From Chloroflexota bacterium (lineage in GTDB: Bacteria; Chloroflexota; Dehalococcoidia; Lucifugimonadales; Lucifugimonadaceae), in contig JAJCYY010000001.1 in the NCBI GenBank assembly GCA_029262735.1, positions 62,001-126,000 on the forward strand: DNA of 64,000 bases, given 5' to 3'. Under the pieces are notes generated by a model. The model was not told where the DNA came from. It did not search any database and saw only the letters and a list, made by a program, of their open reading frames with translations. The translations under genes were made by a program, and so were the position numbers. Shown here piece after piece: positions 45,788 to 62,879 of this stretch; position 1 is the first letter of the stretch; every line of letters starts with the position of its first letter.

Positions 45788-46234
45788 TCAGATGTTGACT
45801 GTGTAGATACTACGGACCGGTCTCGACGGAAGATCCGAACGCAGGCTGGGCCATGGCGCCCTCGACCGAATTCCCATCGCTTCAAGAGAAATCTGCTGGC
45901 CGTTCTCACGAGCGCCGGCAGCGATCTCTGCCTCAGTGTCGAACTCCTTGACGATGTGAACATCGGAGCCGCTGGGGCCCTGACGACTCAGTATCCGAGC
46001 AACGGTGCGACCTGAGATCCCACAGACACTGGCGATCTGCTCGACCTGCATCCCGCTGACTCGCATCGCAGTTATCTGTTTGTCCCGCTCCACCCTGCTG
46101 ATCGCCTTCGACACCCTGTTTCCGGCAAATCCCCGATCGTAGCGGCATACGTCAAACGGACAGTTCAAGCATGAAGGTGCGTAACTGCACCCGTGATCTG
46201 CGTAGATATCGACGAACATTTCACCCGCTGGCAT
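45788..46234 (-). CDS. Cys-cluster plus helix-turn-helix DNA-binding protein
   Basis: A 148-aa protein. ATG 46234 is preceded by GGAGG at 8 nt. N-terminal cluster CSYAPSCLNCPFDVC (C-x5-C-x2-C-x4-C) could hold Zn or an Fe-S centre. It is followed by a basic stretch and a resolvase/Hin-like HTH (RVSGMQVEQIASVCGISGRT). The C-terminal third is Arg/Ser-rich and not recognised. It is preceded by a zinc-ribbon gene on the same strand (35 bp to its upstream in-frame Met, 71 bp to this start) and the pair is divergent from an S24-type repressor gene. Likely a transcriptional regulator of phage or mobile origin. Confidence 0.62.
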   Translation of the reverse strand: MPAGEMFVDIYADHGCSYAPSCLNCPFDVCRYDRGFAGNRVSKAISRVERDKQITAMRVSGMQVEQIASVCGISGRTVARILSRQGPSGSDVHIVKEFDTEAEIAAGARENGQQISLEAMGIRSRAPWPSLRSDLPSRPVRSIYTVNI

Positions 46235-46305
46235 GGGCCACACCTCCACCACCACACAACGTTCGAACACATCACTGCCGGCGAACTCTGGACCTCAACA
46301 GTTGC

Positions 46306-46713
46306 TCATAGGCGCTCCTTGACCGGGTCCTTTCGCAGAATTCGCCTGCCAGGCCGTTCTGCGCGATCCAGTGGAAATGCCGCGTACTCGCATGTGCAGC
46401 CCGAATACCGAGCGGAGAGGCCGCCACAAACGGGACAGGAGTTTGCAACTGAGTCAGATCTGCCGCTGCCTGCACGGAAGATGAGTCCCTGGGTGTGACG
46501 TCGGCACAGGTACCATCGAGTGGCCGCTCCGCCTTTAGGACATAGATCGACATGGCGGCTTTCGGTAGCAGCCGCTCCAGCTTCCTCGCTCACCTGCTCT
46601 GCCGCCGAGTATCTAGATTCGCTGGACGGCTCGTCAGCGCCGGATTCTCTCAGTGATTCCGAAGCCTCATCCGGCGACTTCCACTCTGGCGGAATCCCAG
46701 GTACTACACACAT
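46306..46713 (-). CDS. Small zinc-ribbon protein of unknown function
   Basis: A 135-aa protein with GGAGGG 4 nt before ATG. The first 45 residues are acidic/Ser-rich and low complexity. The second half has LCPKGGAATRWYLCRRHTQG, then SCPVCGG and CTCEYA, so two Cys pairs that could form a zinc ribbon. First of two tandem minus-strand genes. No family is recognised. Confidence 0.5.
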   Translation of the reverse strand: MCVVPGIPPEWKSPDEASESLRESGADEPSSESRYSAAEQVSEEAGAAATESRHVDLCPKGGAATRWYLCRRHTQGLIFRAGSGRSDSVANSCPVCGGLSARYSGCTCEYAAFPLDRAERPGRRILRKDPVKERL

Positions 46714-47069
46714 TCAACCCTCCACCACAACCACCACTGAAAAGAGGCACGGCGGGTGACCCGAATCAAGCGGAAGAACACACTTCACACCGCACCACAC
46801 AACAGTTCTCATCCCACCTGATCGGGCCACCCGCCCCGAAGGAAAAGTCCCTTCTGGCGCATCACTCTGCACCCAAACACTGTCTACGCCCTACAACTAG
46901 CTGGGATCGTTCGTACAGTAACCAGACCGATAGCGGTCATTAGCCGATCAATCATCGCTTGCCGACTTCAACTATCCCCAGCCTGTATCAAGCAAGCTAA
47001 CGCCAATGCCCGTGAAGTACACCACCCGTGTCTGGTCACAGTCCAACAACCATTAATTAATAACTCTTT
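46714..47069. other. Intergenic control region between divergent regulator genes
   Basis: About 360 bp without a gene; C/A-rich on the plus strand near 46715-46810, becoming AT-rich at 47050. The right end merges with the operator cluster at 47070-47115. No promoter close to consensus for the minus-strand pair was found. Confidence 0.4.
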
Positions 47070-47115
47070 ACTATAGTAGAATATGTTACACTCTTAGTCA
47101 AGTTGTACTATTAGT
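47070..47115. promoter_or_regulatory. Three operator-like palindromes ACTA-N(0-1)-TAGT
   Basis: Copies: ACTATAGT at 47070-47077 (inside the perfect palindrome TACTATAGTA), ACTCTTAGT at 47090-47098 (one mismatch) and ACTATTAGT at 47107-47115 (perfect arms, 1-nt centre). Centres are about 20 and 17 bp apart. The tract is much more AT-rich than its surroundings and ends 17 bp before the repressor-like start codon, so autoregulation is likely. Confidence 0.6.
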
Positions 47116-47132
47116 GATACCATCGAACTGAA

Positions 47133-47816
47133 ATGCCGGAAAGTTATCCAGTAAACGGCCAACGCGTCGCCGAAATCAGGGATCGCATCTACCCGCGGCT
47201 CTCGCAGGGTCGGCTTGGTGCGTCGCTTGACCCTCGCAGAACCACACCGTGGGTCCACAAGCTAGAGCATGACGATCTAAAAACGGTGTGGAAGGATGTC
47301 GCTGAGCAGATAGCGGCAATCCTTGGCGTGCCACTCGGAGAAATCTCACGAAAAGTTGGCCAGCCGATACGGTGGCTTGATGACGATGGAGAGACCGTGC
47401 ACGATGCTGCCACGTCCACCTATTCACTGCCCGAGTCACTCGGTCTCAGGAAGGTCTCCCGATACCGGGGTCACGCAGGTCCTCATGGCACCTACCTGGG
47501 TGAAGACCTGTGGGACGCGGAGTCCTTTGCCGATGGTGAGCATGCGGCTGTAGTTGTTGAGGGTGATTGCATGGAGCCGGAGCTTCACCCTGGTGACGTG
47601 GTTCTGGTGGCGCGCCAGATAACGCCGGAGTCAGGTGACATCGTGGCATTCTCGTTAGACGACTCGCTGTTTTTCGCATATTTCAGGAACAGGCGGGAGT
47701 CCACTCGCCTGGAAAACAACGACGGAGACCGCTCAATTGCGGACGTTGTGATGGAGGGCGTTGTCCTGGAGCGCAGAACAAGCTATCGGTCTCGAAGAGT
47801 GTCCGCTTCCCGCTAA
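47133..47816 (+). CDS. XRE-type HTH / S24 peptidase-like repressor with altered catalytic residues
   Basis: A 227-aa cI/LexA-like protein. N-terminal helices (NGQRVAEIRDRIYPRLSQG ... AEQIAAILGVPLGEI) have the spacing of an XRE HTH followed by the LGV-type linker. C-terminal region VVVEGDCMEPELHPGDVVLV is the S24 nucleophile motif, with Cys146 where Ser is expected. The dyad Lys that follows the DDxxTVKR-type strand is missing (DDSLFFAYFRN). Self-cleavage is therefore doubtful. No Shine-Dalgarno. Divergent from two small regulatory-type genes. Confidence 0.72.
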   Translation: MPESYPVNGQRVAEIRDRIYPRLSQGRLGASLDPRRTTPWVHKLEHDDLKTVWKDVAEQIAAILGVPLGEISRKVGQPIRWLDDDGETVHDAATSTYSLPESLGLRKVSRYRGHAGPHGTYLGEDLWDAESFADGEHAAVVVEGDCMEPELHPGDVVLVARQITPESGDIVAFSLDDSLFFAYFRNRRESTRLENNDGDRSIADVVMEGVVLERRTSYRSRRVSASR

Positions 47817-55586: not shown

Positions 55587-57077
55587 ATGCCACGAATACT
55601 GTTGACCGGTTGTGAGCAGGAAATTTCCACCTTCAATCCGGTAGAGTGCGACTACGATCGCTTCACGATCCTGCGAGGCGATGAAGTCGTCGAAGAGAAC
55701 CGCGGCAAGAACAGCACTATCGGCGGCGCTGTAGCCGCGCTCGAGTCATCCGGTTGCGAACTCGTTCCAACCTGGCACGCCCAGGGCGATGCAGCCGGCC
55801 CACTGGCACACAGTGACTTCATGCGCATGGCGTCTGAGTTCCTGGAAGCGTTGAAGCCGCACGCGGGAAAGGTCGACGGCGCCTACTTCTCTTTACACGG
55901 CTCAATGGGCACACCGGATGAGTTGGATCCCGAGGGCTATCTGTTGCAGGAAGCCAGGAAGATCCTTGGCGAGTCTGTGCCGATAGTCATATCTCTCGAC
56001 CTTCACGGCGTGCTGACGGCTCGAATGATGACCCACTCCGATGCCGTCGTTTCCTATCACACATACCCGCACGTCGATTTCGTTGATACCGGCAGGCGCG
56101 CCGCAGCACTGCTCCTTCGGATTGTCAACGACGGCGCGAAACCGGTCGGCGTGCGCGTGCGCATTCCGACGCTCGTCAGGGGCAATGAGTTGATCACCGA
56201 GAAGGGTCTTTTTGGGGCGCAGATTCGCTACGCAAAGCGGCTACAGGTAGATGCGAGCGTACTTTCGGCCGGTTTTTTGATCTGCAATCCGTTCACAGAT
56301 GTACCGGAACTGTGTTCGCAGGCTTTCGTTTACACCGACGCAGACGAAACGCTGGCGGTAAGTGGCGCGACTACGATGGCGAACGAGTTCTGGCCGAACC
56401 GGGCCAGTATGCAGTCCAGTTTTATCGGTCTGAAGGAAGCGGTTTCGCGAGCAGCGTCGATGGATGGTCCAGTCGCGCTGACCGATGCTGCCGACGCAAC
56501 CAGCTCTGGTGCGTCGGGCAACTCGAACGCAATCGTTGCGGAGATGATCAGGCAAGCTTACCCACACAGCGTGCTTGCGCCGATAACCGACCCGCAGCTG
56601 GCCCAGTTAGCACACAGCGGTGGAGTCGGCTCCACGATTCAGGCAAGCGTCGGCGGATCTCTGGATCCGCGTTACACGCCAATCGAAATGGACATGGAGG
56701 TGCTCTCTCTGTCCGACTCACCGTTTGACCTGGAAACCTGGGTGTTCAGGCAGTTCCCTGGCAAGTCAGCAGTTTTACGGGCCGGGATCTACACCATCGT
56801 GGTTACCGAGAATCCTGTGATGTACGTCGACCGTGCAGTGTTCCTTACGAACGGACTTGATCCGAAAGAGTTCCACTCGACTGTCGTCAAGTCGCCGCAC
56901 TGTGAGCCGCAATTTTACGACGACTGGGTCGAGGCGAATCTTAATGTCGACGCACCCGGTGCCACGTCAGCGAATTTGCCCTCGCTCGGCCACACGATCT
57001 GCGCTCGCCCGATGTTCCCAATGGAACAGGACACCGATTTCACACCGAGACCTGAGCGCTTTTCACGCCACGATTAG
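55587..57077 (+). CDS. M81 family metallopeptidase (MlrC/microcystinase C-like)
   Basis: A 496-aa protein matching the two-domain MlrC family. N-terminal metallopeptidase half: GCEQEISTFNPV, AYFSLHGSMGTPDELDPEG, VISLDLHGVLTARM, and the metal His in SYHTYPHVDFVDTGRRAA. C-terminal half: LTDAADATSSGASGNSN and KSPHCEPQFYDDW. Zn-dependent hydrolysis of small or cyclic-derived peptides is known for MlrC. It overlaps by 4 bases the end of the opposing phage-like module. Confidence 0.88.
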   Translation: MPRILLTGCEQEISTFNPVECDYDRFTILRGDEVVEENRGKNSTIGGAVAALESSGCELVPTWHAQGDAAGPLAHSDFMRMASEFLEALKPHAGKVDGAYFSLHGSMGTPDELDPEGYLLQEARKILGESVPIVISLDLHGVLTARMMTHSDAVVSYHTYPHVDFVDTGRRAAALLLRIVNDGAKPVGVRVRIPTLVRGNELITEKGLFGAQIRYAKRLQVDASVLSAGFLICNPFTDVPELCSQAFVYTDADETLAVSGATTMANEFWPNRASMQSSFIGLKEAVSRAASMDGPVALTDAADATSSGASGNSNAIVAEMIRQAYPHSVLAPITDPQLAQLAHSGGVGSTIQASVGGSLDPRYTPIEMDMEVLSLSDSPFDLETWVFRQFPGKSAVLRAGIYTIVVTENPVMYVDRAVFLTNGLDPKEFHSTVVKSPHCEPQFYDDWVEANLNVDAPGATSANLPSLGHTICARPMFPMEQDTDFTPRPERFSRHD

Positions 57078-57433
57078 AAGTTAAAGATCGTACCGCCCGC
57101 GGCAACGTCCGATCTCCTGCCGGGCAACTGGAGAAGGGCGCGTCTCGGGTCAAACTGTTCAGTCAGGAACTGGTTGAACGTCAGGGTCGGCTCATCGCCA
57201 GAACGGATCTGGCTGCCAAGCACTCCAAGGAACCTGTTGAAAGTCGGTGTGAACAGACTTTGAAACTGAAGCTGCTGACCAGGTGATGCATCGAACGGAG
57301 ATATCGACTGAAACAGCGTTCGTTCGCCGATGTCAGTCCCTTCAAGCAACCTGAGAAACGCCTCTTGCACCTCCGAGTCGATCAACGACTGATCGAAGTC
57401 GTCTTGCTGATCTGTAATCTGCTGGTTAACCAT
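57074..57433 (-). CDS. Phage-module hypothetical protein (119 aa)
   Basis: An acidic, Gln/Phe/Leu-rich protein with no recognised domain. The C-terminal PTLTFNQFLTEQFDP...LLQLP is faintly similar to the end of the upstream 283-aa protein (NPDINFLEFARQQNLLP), suggesting related structural proteins. AGGA lies near the ATG. Last gene of the minus-strand module, convergent with the M81 gene. Confidence 0.55.
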   Translation of the reverse strand: MVNQQITDQQDDFDQSLIDSEVQEAFLRLLEGTDIGERTLFQSISPFDASPGQQLQFQSLFTPTFNRFLGVLGSQIRSGDEPTLTFNQFLTEQFDPRRALLQLPGRRSDVAAGGTIFNF

Positions 57434-57481
57434 TCAAAATCCTGTTCGTCACTCGTGTTGCCGATCTACAGCCCGGGAGAT

Positions 57482-58330
57482 TCAAACTGGCAAGAGGTTT
57501 TGCTGCCGTGCGAACTCCAGGAAATTAATATCAGGATTGCTTTCCGCAAGTTGACGTTCCAGCTCTCGAAAAAGACGGGCGTTTGAAGGCAGGAGGCGAG
57601 ATCCAACGAACGATCCGAAGCGGTCGGCCGCCGCCGCCTTGGCAAGCCTGAAGACGTCCGCAGCATTCCCCCGTCCCCGGCTCGTTGCCACATCCGGATT
57701 CTGCAGACTCTGAAACGTCAGCAGTTGCTCCGCGTCCAGATCTCCGCCCACACTGCGGGCCAGCAAATCTTGAAATGTTTCTGCCGCGATGTCGAGGTCA
57801 CCGAATCGGTCCCTGAAAAACAGCTGCAACGCGCCCGGGTCCTGGCCGATCGGGTCAATTGAGCCGGTCAGTGAGCCGATCCGCGCAACCGGTGCCAGCG
57901 TATCGAAGCGCTCACCGACGGTGCTTCCAAGCACGCCTTCGGGGTCCAATCCCAGCTCTGCTACTGCGTTCTGGAAGCTTGCGAACGGGAACGACTGGAC
58001 ATCGATCGGCAGGTCCGTGATCCCGTTGGACGGCTCCGTTTCCTCCGGGTCCGATCCAGGTTCCTCTTTGTCATCGGGCTCATCCCGTGCAACCACAATA
58101 GCGAGCGTCTTTACGAACGCGTTTAGATCGCCTAACTGGCTCCGTTGAAGCAGTTCCAGGAAGTCTGGATCTGTTTCGAGCAAGAATTCCGGAGTGCTTA
58201 CGATTTCAACACTTGCCGTCGACCCAAACCTCGAGTTCAAAATGGCCCGCGCCGCAGATGTACTGGCCGATTCGACCCGAAAGAATCTCGGTACACCGCT
58301 TGCGCCCAACACTTTGCCCACAAAAATCAT
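57482..58330 (-). CDS. Phage-module hypothetical protein (about 282 aa)
   Basis: ATG 58330 with GGAGG 6 nt upstream. N-terminal 60 residues form a beta-rich part (MIFVGKVLGASGVPRFFRVE), followed by an acidic Glu/Asp/Pro linker (residues 109-127) and an alpha-helical C-terminus rich in Ala/Leu/Phe/Gln. No family is recognised. Position directly after the portal-like gene would fit a scaffold, connector or minor structural protein, but this is inference. Confidence 0.55.
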   Translation of the reverse strand: MIFVGKVLGASGVPRFFRVESASTSAARAILNSRFGSTASVEIVSTPEFLLETDPDFLELLQRSQLGDLNAFVKTLAIVVARDEPDDKEEPGSDPEETEPSNGITDLPIDVQSFPFASFQNAVAELGLDPEGVLGSTVGERFDTLAPVARIGSLTGSIDPIGQDPGALQLFFRDRFGDLDIAAETFQDLLARSVGGDLDAEQLLTFQSLQNPDVATSRGRGNAADVFRLAKAAAADRFGSFVGSRLLPSNARLFRELERQLAESNPDINFLEFARQQNLLPV

Positions 58331-58397
58331 CACTCACCTCCAGGTCTCACGGTGATCCACTTAACAGTTCGCAACCATTTGCGGACTCAATGCCTAT

Positions 58398-60569
58398 TCA
58401 AGAGACAGTGCTGGTCAACGGTTCGCCGTCGGCACCCACAAGACCCGACTGCATACGTCCAGCGGATGCAGCCGTGTGCACCTTCTCGGGACCGGGCTCA
58501 TTGCCAACGCCAGCAGCCTGGGCAAATGGAATTGCGCCATTAGCCGGGTTGCGAGCGTGGTTGAACCTCGGAACCTCGTCAAGCGGATTGGGACTGAAAA
58601 GCGTGCCGCCCTCCGGCGCTGCGAGATCGCGACTCGCCAGATCGCTGAGAAGTGAATTCAGAGAAGGTAGGCCGCCTTCCGGTGAATCCGACAGCCCGTT
58701 TTCAGCCTGCTCTGAGAGAAGCCGACGAACAGCCGTCTGCCCTTCCACCTGCCTTTGCAGATGCAGGACCTGTAGCCTGTCAAACCAGATCGCTCCCAAC
58801 GCATGGTCACCGTCTTTGATTGCCGCCAGGAACATACCCATCGCCTGTGCAAGCGGATCTTGAGAGAACGCCTGCGCCTCCCGGTTCTGAGTCCGGATCT
58901 GGCGATGTGACTGCATCTTCAGGACACGTTCTCGCACCCACTCAAGTGATGCCAGGGGTTCTCCATTGAGAGTTGGCTGCATCGCCATCTGGGCGACGGT
59001 CCAGCGAGTCACTTCATCTTCCGGCAGAGCCAGTGACATTGAGACTTCGATCGGGTCGTGCCCGGCGATGATTTCCGGTGAAATCACCCGGTTGGCAAAG
59101 CGATGGTTGTCGAACCGTCTGCCGGAGACGCTAATCGGATTGAATGCGCCGGTCTCGTACTGGGCAACGAGGTTCTCCAGGCAGCCTTCGATGCAGCGTG
59201 CAACCGCTCTCATCCGCGGCAGTACACGGTGCTCGAGATTGTTGCCCAGCTGCCTGAGAGCTACGGACGATAACGGCTTATCCAACAGGCCGAACGCCTG
59301 TGGAGGAAGTCCACCCGCCACGGAATCTTTCTGCAATTGCTGGATCAGTAGAGCGGCCGCGCCGTTGATGTCGGACTCAGGAAAACTCTGAACATCCTCC
59401 TGGTTTGCCGTCGAAAGGTTTATCTCTGCGCCCTTGTCGTTGGCGCCGTCATCGAGGGATTTCGTGCCATCGAGAGAGAAGACCTTCTTGCGAGGATCGG
59501 ACGCCTTGCCCGTGAGATCGAGCACGTATGATGCCGCACGGTTCAGCCTGTCCCAGACCCCGCGGTTTTCAGCAAAGATGCTTTCACCGAAGTGCATGTC
59601 GGGAGCAGCTTCAGTCTCGGTTGGCGCGAGCATCGGTTGTGGACCTACTGGCGCAACGACGATTGGGAACGAGAGCATGTGCAGGTTGTGCGGCGGGCGG
59701 GCCCACTGGCCGTCGATGATCGTGCCCGCGATGTATATGAACGGGTGACGACGGAATGGATCCGTCGAGGTGATCTCGAAATCGGGATTCTCCTCTCGCG
59801 AGAAGTACTCGAACACATCGACGCCTTCATCATCGCCGGCCGAAGGCGCGCGCTCGAACTCGAACTGCGGGAACTCCTCTCGCACCTCGGCCACTGTACG
59901 TCGCAAGCGATGCGCCGCCCAGAGAGGCTCTTCGACGCCGGGCTGAACAAACAGGTGGCGCGGGTCCAGTGGAAGGATGTCCTCAAAGGTTTCACCGTTC
60001 GGTCTTTTTCGCAGAACAGCGCGTGCAGCGGCAAACCGACCTCGGACAACTGTAAAGAAGGAGAGAGCGTCTACGATTGGCGGATGACCGAGCCGACGAT
60101 GACGTCTCTCGACGTTGTTGAGCATGCCAATTGCAAGTTGCTCTGCCTGGTCATTCGCCGACTCTTGGGGCTCTCCTGCTTCATCATTCGGGGCGCGGAC
60201 CACGAGCTCCGTCGCCGTGATGAAGGAGATCACTTTTTCGGCCAGCACCCGCGGCTCGTTCGTCGTGTAAATGTCCTCGGGAGACAGAGCGTCGGTCAGG
60301 TCTGGCTGCCAGCGGTCGAGCGTGTACAGGGAGTAGTCGGTGTCCATTCGATCGTGGACGGTTGAAAGGCTCTGAAATTTTTGCTGGATGCGTCCGCTGA
60401 TCTCGTCGCCGCGGCCTGCGAGCACCTTCATGTGGATATCGACGAGAGATACGGAGTCAGCGTGAACACTGCCACGCGTTTGACGGGTTGAGTCGCCGCC
60501 GGCTGCTGGACGGCCTCCACCGGAAGTCGTGGTCGAGCTTTCTCGGGCGTGTTGGATCTCAGTAGCCAA
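58398..60569 (-). CDS. Phage portal (head-tail connector)-like protein
   Basis: TTG 60569 with AGGAG 8 nt upstream gives 723 aa; a longer frame to 60629 lacks a site. Features matching large portal proteins: N-terminal helix region with NEPRVLAEKVISFIT, a central stretch FVQPGVEEPLWAAHRLRRTVAEVREEFP, EYFSREENPDFEI, IAGTIIDGQWARPPH, and a long helical stem region (GGLPPQAFGLLDKPLSSVALRQLGNNLEHRVLP, RMRAVARCIEGCLENLV) typical of the portal clip/stem. C-terminal 150 residues are low-complexity Ser/Gly/Pro-rich. No terminase or capsid gene is adjacent in the window. Call is from pattern and should be verified by profile search. Confidence 0.62.
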   Translation of the reverse strand: MATEIQHARESSTTTSGGGRPAAGGDSTRQTRGSVHADSVSLVDIHMKVLAGRGDEISGRIQQKFQSLSTVHDRMDTDYSLYTLDRWQPDLTDALSPEDIYTTNEPRVLAEKVISFITATELVVRAPNDEAGEPQESANDQAEQLAIGMLNNVERRHRRLGHPPIVDALSFFTVVRGRFAAARAVLRKRPNGETFEDILPLDPRHLFVQPGVEEPLWAAHRLRRTVAEVREEFPQFEFERAPSAGDDEGVDVFEYFSREENPDFEITSTDPFRRHPFIYIAGTIIDGQWARPPHNLHMLSFPIVVAPVGPQPMLAPTETEAAPDMHFGESIFAENRGVWDRLNRAASYVLDLTGKASDPRKKVFSLDGTKSLDDGANDKGAEINLSTANQEDVQSFPESDINGAAALLIQQLQKDSVAGGLPPQAFGLLDKPLSSVALRQLGNNLEHRVLPRMRAVARCIEGCLENLVAQYETGAFNPISVSGRRFDNHRFANRVISPEIIAGHDPIEVSMSLALPEDEVTRWTVAQMAMQPTLNGEPLASLEWVRERVLKMQSHRQIRTQNREAQAFSQDPLAQAMGMFLAAIKDGDHALGAIWFDRLQVLHLQRQVEGQTAVRRLLSEQAENGLSDSPEGGLPSLNSLLSDLASRDLAAPEGGTLFSPNPLDEVPRFNHARNPANGAIPFAQAAGVGNEPGPEKVHTAASAGRMQSGLVGADGEPLTSTVS

Positions 60570-60749
60570 ACCTGACGCTCCTATACGCAATGTTTTGCGT
60601 TCTACTCTGCAACGACGCGTGGCCCGCAATTAGTGGGCGATGTTGCTGTGCCTGTGACTTCAGGCTAGTTCAGTGGAATACGCGAACAAAGCGCGCTGTC
60701 ATGCTGTCGAAAAGCTGGCTGAATCCGGATTCAAGCATTCCGGAACCGG

Positions 60750-61835
60750 CTAAATCGCCTTCGGCTCCGGAACATCCCAATCCCGACTCAGGTAGTCAGC
60801 GGGGAGCCTCAGGTCCGGAAGTTGCGGAGCCCGGTGATCGATGCCGCCGGTGATCGCAAGCCAGTGCTGATTGTCTTTGACCATGCCGAGAGCGCCGTTC
60901 AACTCGGCGCCCGATCGTTCCTGGAGAGCGTTCAGGTTCGCCGACCTGCGGTCAAACACAGACTGGATCTTCGCTCTGATCTCTTCGTTTACCTGAGTCG
61001 GATGTTCTTCTGCGATTGCTGACAGTTGAGAAGCCCAGAACTTGAGCTCCGCCTTCATGCTGTTGCACGTGTTGATGTTTGCCCACGCCTCGGTGTACTT
61101 GGCCTTCCAGAACTGAAGCCGCTCAAAGGCGTGGTCTGACAGGTCCGTCTCGGCTACGGCATAAAGTCTGCCCTTGAGCAGCGCAGAGCCATCGGGGATA
61201 TCAACTGAGATCCCCGCCTCTTCCAGCCGTCCGAGCCAGTATTCGACGCACGCCTTCTGGTGGATGTACTCATCCATACTTGTCAGGTTCACGCCGTAGA
61301 CGTGCAACTTGCCAATCGTTCTGCCAAGCACACTGTGCTCGTACCACGCTAGAGCAAGCTGATAGGCAAACGTCGACGTGAGGTAGCTTCGATCAGCCGC
61401 CGTCGAAATTTCCTCTATCGGATAGCGTTTCGAGTTGGGCACATCGGGATCCGTCGACTGCATCCATATAGTGCCGTCGAACGACGCAAGGAAGTCCAGG
61501 TGTTCCCTGGGACGACCAAAGTAGCCTGTCGGCGGCTTCCCGGCAGATGACCAGTTGCGTGGATGCATCTGGAACCAGTATGTCGCTCGTGCGCGCGTTT
61601 TCGGACCTTTCGGGCCAAAAATGAAGACGTGAGCCATGTTGATTGCCCAGATCTCAGTAGATTCGGGCAGATCGAAAACCATGTCACGTGTCTCTTCAGC
61701 GTAGCCAAGCAAGCAGACCTCACGAGGCGCGGAAGCGTCGGAGTCAGATTGGACCTTGGTCGAATTTGTGACACTGACCTTTTTTGGCGTCTTAAGTGAC
61801 ACACCGGACTGCTCAGACGTCTTCGCTTCGATCAC
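60750..61835 (-). CDS. Phage-associated Rossmann-like protein of unknown function
   Basis: GTG 61835 with GGAGG 6 nt upstream gives 361 aa; the longer frame to 61952 is not preferred. After a polar tail of about 50 residues comes REVCLLGYAEETRDMVFDL, EIWAINMAHVF, YWFQMHPRNW, PNSKRYPIEEIS, YLTSTFAYQLALAWYE, KLHVYGVNLTSMDEYIHQKAC and GISVDIPDGSALLKGRLYA. This order is one I have seen in many uncharacterised phage proteins, probably a Rossmann-like sugar or nucleotide-binding fold. The C-terminal 120 residues are helical. Function not known. Confidence 0.6.
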   Translation of the reverse strand: MIEAKTSEQSGVSLKTPKKVSVTNSTKVQSDSDASAPREVCLLGYAEETRDMVFDLPESTEIWAINMAHVFIFGPKGPKTRARATYWFQMHPRNWSSAGKPPTGYFGRPREHLDFLASFDGTIWMQSTDPDVPNSKRYPIEEISTAADRSYLTSTFAYQLALAWYEHSVLGRTIGKLHVYGVNLTSMDEYIHQKACVEYWLGRLEEAGISVDIPDGSALLKGRLYAVAETDLSDHAFERLQFWKAKYTEAWANINTCNSMKAELKFWASQLSAIAEEHPTQVNEEIRAKIQSVFDRRSANLNALQERSGAELNGALGMVKDNQHWLAITGGIDHRAPQLPDLRLPADYLSRDWDVPEPKAI

Positions 61836-62438
61836 CGTTCGCCTCCTGTTTGGCCAATGCAACAAATGCTGTTTCGCATTTTGCCTTGCAATTGCGCCTA
61901 CGCAGACACCGCCATGTCTCTCGCGAGCGGTTCGACCAGGGACAGGTAGCAACCCGAATTATCCGGGGTACTTTGGATCACAGAGTCGAAGACGCGACTC
62001 GGACCGCCGGTCAGCCACACCATGAGTCCGTGAACGACTCATGCCTGATCTTCAGCAACAAATGGCAACTCGTCGCAGTGCCGACGCTCACTCACTCCGT
62101 GGCGTAAGAACCGACCATATGAACGTGGCCGGATCCAACACATCTCGTCAATTCACTACAAGGCCAGCCGCCGAATAGGAACGTTGTTTGAAGAATCGAA
62201 TACTCTCAGTGACCCAGGCCAGATCGCTGTATCTCAAACGCATTGCGGAAGCCAAGTGCTCCAATTCAATGGATGCCCGCCAGCAGGCCAATCGCGAGGT
62301 CAAACGTGCCGTGCGTGCGTTGCAACAGGCACAGATGAGTAGCCGCTTGAACAAACATCGTCAGTCAAGTATCTCGAGGCCATCTGACTGGAATGTCGAG
62401 TCGGTATAACCGCGGAGTTTGGCGAAAAATCTGCGAAA
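61836..62438. other. 603-bp interval within the phage-like module
   Basis: Contains only one doubtful plus-strand frame (62188-62409). Nothing else recognisable on either strand; no strong hairpin, tRNA or repeat was seen. Confidence 0.4.
62188..62409 (+). CDS. Doubtful 73-aa basic helical protein
   Basis: TTG-started plus-strand frame, opposite in direction to the rest of the module. The product is Arg/Lys/Ala/Gln-rich and would be alpha-helical (ARQQANREVKRAVRALQQAQ). No clear ribosome site. An overlapping minus-strand frame (62148-62354) is no better. Listed only as a possibility. Confidence 0.25.
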   Translation: MKNRILSVTQARSLYLKRIAEAKCSNSMDARQQANREVKRAVRALQQAQMSSRLNKHRQSSISRPSDWNVESV

Positions 62439-62879
62439 CTAGCCTGTGGGTGAGAACCCTGGCACGTAGATTTTGGGTGACTCACCTGAGCGCATACGCT
62501 TCGACCACTTTCGGTAGTCACGCCAGATGGCTGCGAGTTCGCGTCGAGCATCCCAGTTTTCGGGGTCAGCCATTTGCTCCGGTGTCAACCTGTTGCCACG
62601 AAGCTGAAGTCGTTCGGCAATCTTAGCCGCAGTCCGCTCGCTGACCCACGCAGCCAGGTCTTCGATCTGAGCCTCAGAAGCGCTTTCTTCGGCCAGGACG
62701 CCGAACATCTCGGACTCGCCCTTGAAGATCAGTCGGAACTCGTGCTTAAAGACCCGCTCAGCGTTCTCTGGCGCATAGCCAACAAGCCAGGACTGCACAT
62801 ATGTGACGCCGTCAGCTTCGACATATCCGGCTCGGTCATCAATTACCGCGCCGTCCGGTACGAAGATCTCAGGTTGCAA
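62439..62879 (-). CDS. Phage-module hypothetical protein (146 aa)
   Basis: TTG start with AGAGG just upstream. N-terminal half is beta-rich (EIFVPDGAVIDDRAGYVEAD, VTYVQSWLVGYAPENAERV), C-terminal half helical and charged (WVSERTAAKIAERLQLRGNR, AAIWRDYRKWSKRM). No family is recognised. First gene of the minus-strand module. Confidence 0.55.
   Translation of the reverse strand: MQPEIFVPDGAVIDDRAGYVEADGVTYVQSWLVGYAPENAERVFKHEFRLIFKGESEMFGVLAEESASEAQIEDLAAWVSERTAAKIAERLQLRGNRLTPEQMADPENWDARRELAAIWRDYRKWSKRMRSGESPKIYVPGFSPTG

Follow-up and report, generated by a model that had tools for sequence, protein, structure and literature searches.

The window, that is, the whole 64-kb stretch of DNA analysed, belongs to a Chloroflexota (Dehalococcoidia-type) assembly (closest named relatives JANQEF010000073.1 and JAQBUH010000008.1) and contains a divergent three-gene locus. 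On the plus strand lies the gene for an XRE-S24-like repressor of 227 residues (47133–47816), annotated on the basis of matches to PF00717 and phrog_4 and of alignments. It faces an operon of two genes on the minus strand. The first encodes a zinc-ribbon protein (46306–46713), with orthologues in the related genomes G003 to G006, and the second a protein with a Cys-cluster and a helix-turn-helix (Cys-HTH; 45788–46234), annotated from alignment and a match to HTH_23. The genes lie where a preliminary description of the locus had placed them, and the gene order, whose synteny it had proposed to check, is kept in G004 and G006. The locus occupies a fixed chromosomal place near metK, and the metK neighbourhood is conserved together with the gene order.

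The zinc-ribbon protein has the conserved motifs CP..., WYxC, CPxCG and GCxC, with weak profile matches to zinc-ribbon families. The reading frame of the Cys-HTH gene spans 45788–46270, and the start common to the orthologues is the ATG at 46234 (MPAGEMFVDIY). Its Cys-cluster has the form C-x5-C-x2-C-x4-C. In the profile search HTH_23 was matched slightly below the cut-off (E 3e-5), and a fold search with this protein gave nothing better than E 0.09. The Cys-HTH family is present in 43 of 60 relatives. A role in defence was considered and rejected: PADLOC gave no convincing match, and its lone hit, to Cas11f (E 7e-4, 42 residues of the Cys-HTH protein), was taken as chance.

It is worth adding that the Cys-HTH family has a core copy, which sits after a protein of about 230 residues that aligns with a terminase-like ATPase. 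In G057 the partner is a 465-residue protein with weak matches to the terminase large subunit, and it adjoins a succinyl-CoA-synthetase-like gene. The core copy and its terminase-like partner (loci L038:9074-10807, minus strand, and L032:6712-7407, plus strand) are possibly a domesticated terminase pair.

The C-terminal half of the repressor is well defined. It scores 41.3 bits against PF00717 (Peptidase_S24), for which the curated cut-off is 23.3, and the protein also matches the phrog_4 transcriptional repressor (E 5e-13) and T. maritima LexA, 3k2z (E 3e-4). The XRE-S24 identity originally proposed thus holds for the S24 half, while profiles support the XRE half weakly (HTH_31, E 0.12; HTH_26, E 0.022 in the orthologues). 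AlphaFold predicts N-terminal helices, but the model is poor there (pLDDT < 50). The HTH region is almost invariant among the three S24 orthologues, and its assignment as an XRE-type domain is plausible.

The catalytic residues of LexA are a Ser and a Lys. In the alignment to Thermotoga LexA, Cys146 of the window protein falls at the position of the Ser and Tyr183 at that of the Lys, and the cleavage-site motif Ala115-Gly116 is kept and invariant. Cys is found at the Ser position in all five sequences compared, and Lys is replaced by Tyr or Phe in the four orthologues. This replacement was missed in the preliminary description. Because the residues of the Ser-Lys dyad are replaced, we infer that SOS-type self-cleavage of the protein is unlikely. 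The same genome encodes a separate, intact LexA (G000:C12:32656-33309), which has the S24 fold and the Ala-Gly motif in common with the window protein but keeps the Ser (KGDSM) and the Lys (TLKYF) where the latter has GDCM and FFAYF. With an ordinary LexA present, the window protein would therefore be an additional regulator.

The change from Ser to Cys is seen in nine of ten aligned S24-type regulators, five from this genus and four from other families of the class; in the tenth the motif is lost. Being so widespread, it may mark a lineage-wide family of non-peptidase S24 proteins. The class-wide regulators with Cys at this position include those at L061, L062, L063, L064 and L005, and the catalytic Lys is kept in L061 and L062.

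Upstream of the S24 gene are three operator-like sites, at −63, −43 and −26 relative to its start codon. Site 1 (ACTATAGT, 47070–47077) and site 3 (ACTATTAGT, 47107–47115) are exact copies of the ACTA-N(0-1)-TAGT palindrome. Site 2 (ACTCTTAGT, 47090–47098), which had been described as a third such palindrome, has one mismatch and is not a full ACTA-N-TAGT. The sites are not a product of chance, because they are scarce in the window, rarely reproduced by shuffling and few genome-wide. The 64-kb window has five sites within one mismatch in all, three of them being those described here. Three such sites within 60 bp arose in 4 of 5000 dinucleotide shuffles of AT-rich intergenic sequence, and two exact ones in none of 5000. 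The 4.29-Mb assembly contains 3 ACTATAGT sites and 7 ACTANTAGT sites in total. The genome search suggested earlier thus does find further exact copies, but inspection of six of them showed no clustering and placed five within predicted reading frames, some of them doubtful. A genome-wide regulon was also considered and was rejected on the basis of these six copies.

Sites 1 and 2 overlap a predicted minus-strand promoter, which is new here and was missed in the earlier reading of the sequence. Its −35 element, TTGACT (47096–47101), overlaps site 2, and its −10 element, TACTAT (47073–47078), overlaps site 1. The corresponding hexamers are TTGACT and TACTAT in G004 and TTGACA and TACGAT in G006, giving a sigma-70-like pattern TTGAC[TA]-N17-TAC[TG]AT that reads toward the zinc-ribbon and Cys-HTH genes in all three genomes. 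The leader between the predicted promoter and the zinc-ribbon start would be long, at about 350 bp in the window and about 220 bp in G004. Promoter matches as good as this one are expected by chance about once per 2.7 kb, and the match in the window is by itself not significant; the weight of the predicted promoter rests on its conservation. No clear rightward promoter was found in the window.

The intergenic comparison covers three S24-positive genomes, namely the window genome, G004 and G006. Conservation of the palindromes in close relatives had been named as the condition on which the proposed operator depended, and sites 1 and 2 are present in all three genomes, within 1 bp of the window distances: at −64 and −44 (ACTACCAGT) in G004 and at −62 and −42 (ACTATTTGT) in G006, site 1 having one mismatch in each. 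Site 3 recurs in G006 at −25 (ACTATAGC) but is missing in G004, and so is found in two of the three genomes. In an ungapped comparison, a block of 35 bp that is equally far from the start codon in all three genomes has 20 invariant columns, compared with a maximum of 12 in 300 sets of shuffled sequences.

Selection on the leftward promoter alone could produce part of this pattern. The palindromes would then stem from the −10 and −35 boxes and otherwise from chance, with the S24 protein acting elsewhere. The conserved hexamers do fall inside sites 1 and 2, and every palindrome in the relatives carries a mismatch. Against this, invariance extends beyond the promoter hexamers to the AC of site 1 and the ACT half of site 2, and site 3 is outside the promoter altogether and is still kept in G006. 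The invariance of the ACT half of site 2 therefore favours an operator overlapping a promoter over a promoter alone. What is conserved is a single orthologous segment, so that promoter and operator cannot be told fully apart. We regard selection on the promoter alone as unlikely.

The pattern of absence is also informative. G003 and G005 keep the zinc-ribbon gene, the Cys-HTH gene and a neighbouring gene of 106 codons, with no S24 gene between them, and upstream of their operon neither the sites nor the promoter were found. Promoter and sites are thus both missing where the S24 gene is missing and the downstream genes remain, which argues further against selection on the promoter alone. It also bears on which protein binds the palindromes. 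The Cys-HTH protein is of a DNA-binding type and is encoded in the operon, and could bind the sites and autoregulate its own genes in place of the S24 protein; as the operon of G003 and G005 includes the Cys-HTH gene but is not preceded by such sites, we consider this highly improbable.

The S24 gene is rare, being matched in 6 of 250 genomes of the order. Among these six, the match in G003 is a different, divergent copy and G127 is outside the genus. In G002 the S24 gene is present and the contig ends inside it. Two small gene trees place G002 beside G003, with 97 and 92% support; the trees are short, and the assemblies are drafts. This grouping makes loss of the repressor together with its control DNA in G003 the simpler reading, and suggests that G003 has lost both.

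The preliminary description regarded the locus as a phage-like control region which could control a phage-like module at 57–62.9 kb in the window. Neither part is borne out. No match to the S24 or Cys-HTH protein was found in phage records or IMG/VR, and together with the conserved chromosomal synteny near metK this speaks against a phage origin for the locus. No sites within one mismatch were found ahead of the 62.9-kb module, where a search for further ACTA-TAGT operators had been suggested, or at the module loci of G004, G005 and G006, and G005 has the module with neither the S24 gene nor the sites. The operon is thus a likelier target than the module. The module itself (57074–62879) matches no Pfam family above cut-off, and its PHROG matches reach E 0.07 at best, so its phage nature is unsupported by profiles; its 400-residue protein has one distant phage match, to a Microcystis phage (28.6% identity). 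That phages commonly carry S24 repressors, and that contig C15 of G003 has another S24/Cys-HTH pair beside a homologue of this 400-residue protein, would fit an origin of the locus as the immunity region of a phage or mobile element, now a remnant, under whose control the module once stood. In view of the fixed position of the locus, the missing phage relatives and the site-free module, we consider such a remnant very improbable.

The region on contig C15 (L031:6569-10038) carries homologues of the 146- and 400-residue module proteins, the latter 47% identical, adjoining this second, divergent pair. NeuB-like and CMP-sugar-synthetase-like genes, named by eye, are also present.

On the basis of the conserved sites, the conserved promoter that overlaps them, the joint absence of repressor and sites, and the replaced catalytic residues, we hypothesise that the XRE-S24-like protein is a chromosomal repressor of the adjacent divergent operon, and consider this fairly probable. 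DNA binding, promoter activity, the direction of regulation and the signal are predicted as follows. Between the divergent genes the repressor would occupy two or three ACTA-N(0-1)-TAGT operators arranged in tandem. Since sites 1 and 2 cover the −10 and −35 boxes, the bound protein would keep the zinc-ribbon and Cys-HTH genes from being transcribed, and rightward transcription of the S24 gene is likely to be autoregulated via the same sites. With the Ser-Lys dyad gone, derepression would not depend on RecA-stimulated self-cleavage but would follow when the repressor is lost, or when a partner protein, a ligand or the redox state acts on it. One speculative version, to which we give little credence, is a cleavage-independent switch in which the invariant Cys senses redox state or metal and the outputs are two Cys-cluster regulators that bind DNA or metal.

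The locus would represent a small control unit, marked by evolutionary footprinting, from a group of bacteria known mainly through metagenome assemblies. The predicted repressor has been retained with its operator-like sites after losing the residues for self-cleavage, which raises the question of what lifts the repression if not proteolysis. The order-wide Cys-HTH family is a likely output of the switch.

The arrangement can be compared with three known systems. Lambda CI and OR combine an HTH-S24 layout with tandem palindromes overlapping a divergent promoter, and the window locus has a comparable layout, with a putative HTH half ahead of the S24 domain and tandem palindromes of which sites 1 and 2 overlap a predicted leftward promoter. 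The likeness to a lambdoid three-site operator that was originally drawn holds as far as the tandem palindromes. The spacing is, however, shorter and uneven (20 and 17 bp), G004 is without the third site, and the locus is not located in a prophage, has no identified Cro-like gene and lacks the catalytic dyad. A closer parallel is FddR of Francisella, a self-contained divergent S24 unit which keeps the Ser-Lys dyad and is DNA-damage-responsive (PMC13148647). As in that unit, conserved palindromes lie in the intergenic region between a repressor gene and its predicted divergent target; the window locus differs in its lost dyad, tandem sites and Cys-rich outputs, and in that no phage relative was found. 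In Streptococcus mutans, the core-genome LexA-like repressor IrvR represses the adjacent gene for the Cro-like IrvA, and its self-cleavage needs Ser224 and Lys260 (PMC7101444). The likeness here is looser, being that of a chromosomal LexA-like predicted repressor beside its candidate target, with an S24 domain that lacks the dyad and partners that are not recognisably Cro-like. Because its architecture matches that of FddR, and loosely that of IrvR/IrvA, both of which have the dyad, the locus is best classed, by analogy, as a variant of the self-contained divergent S24 units.
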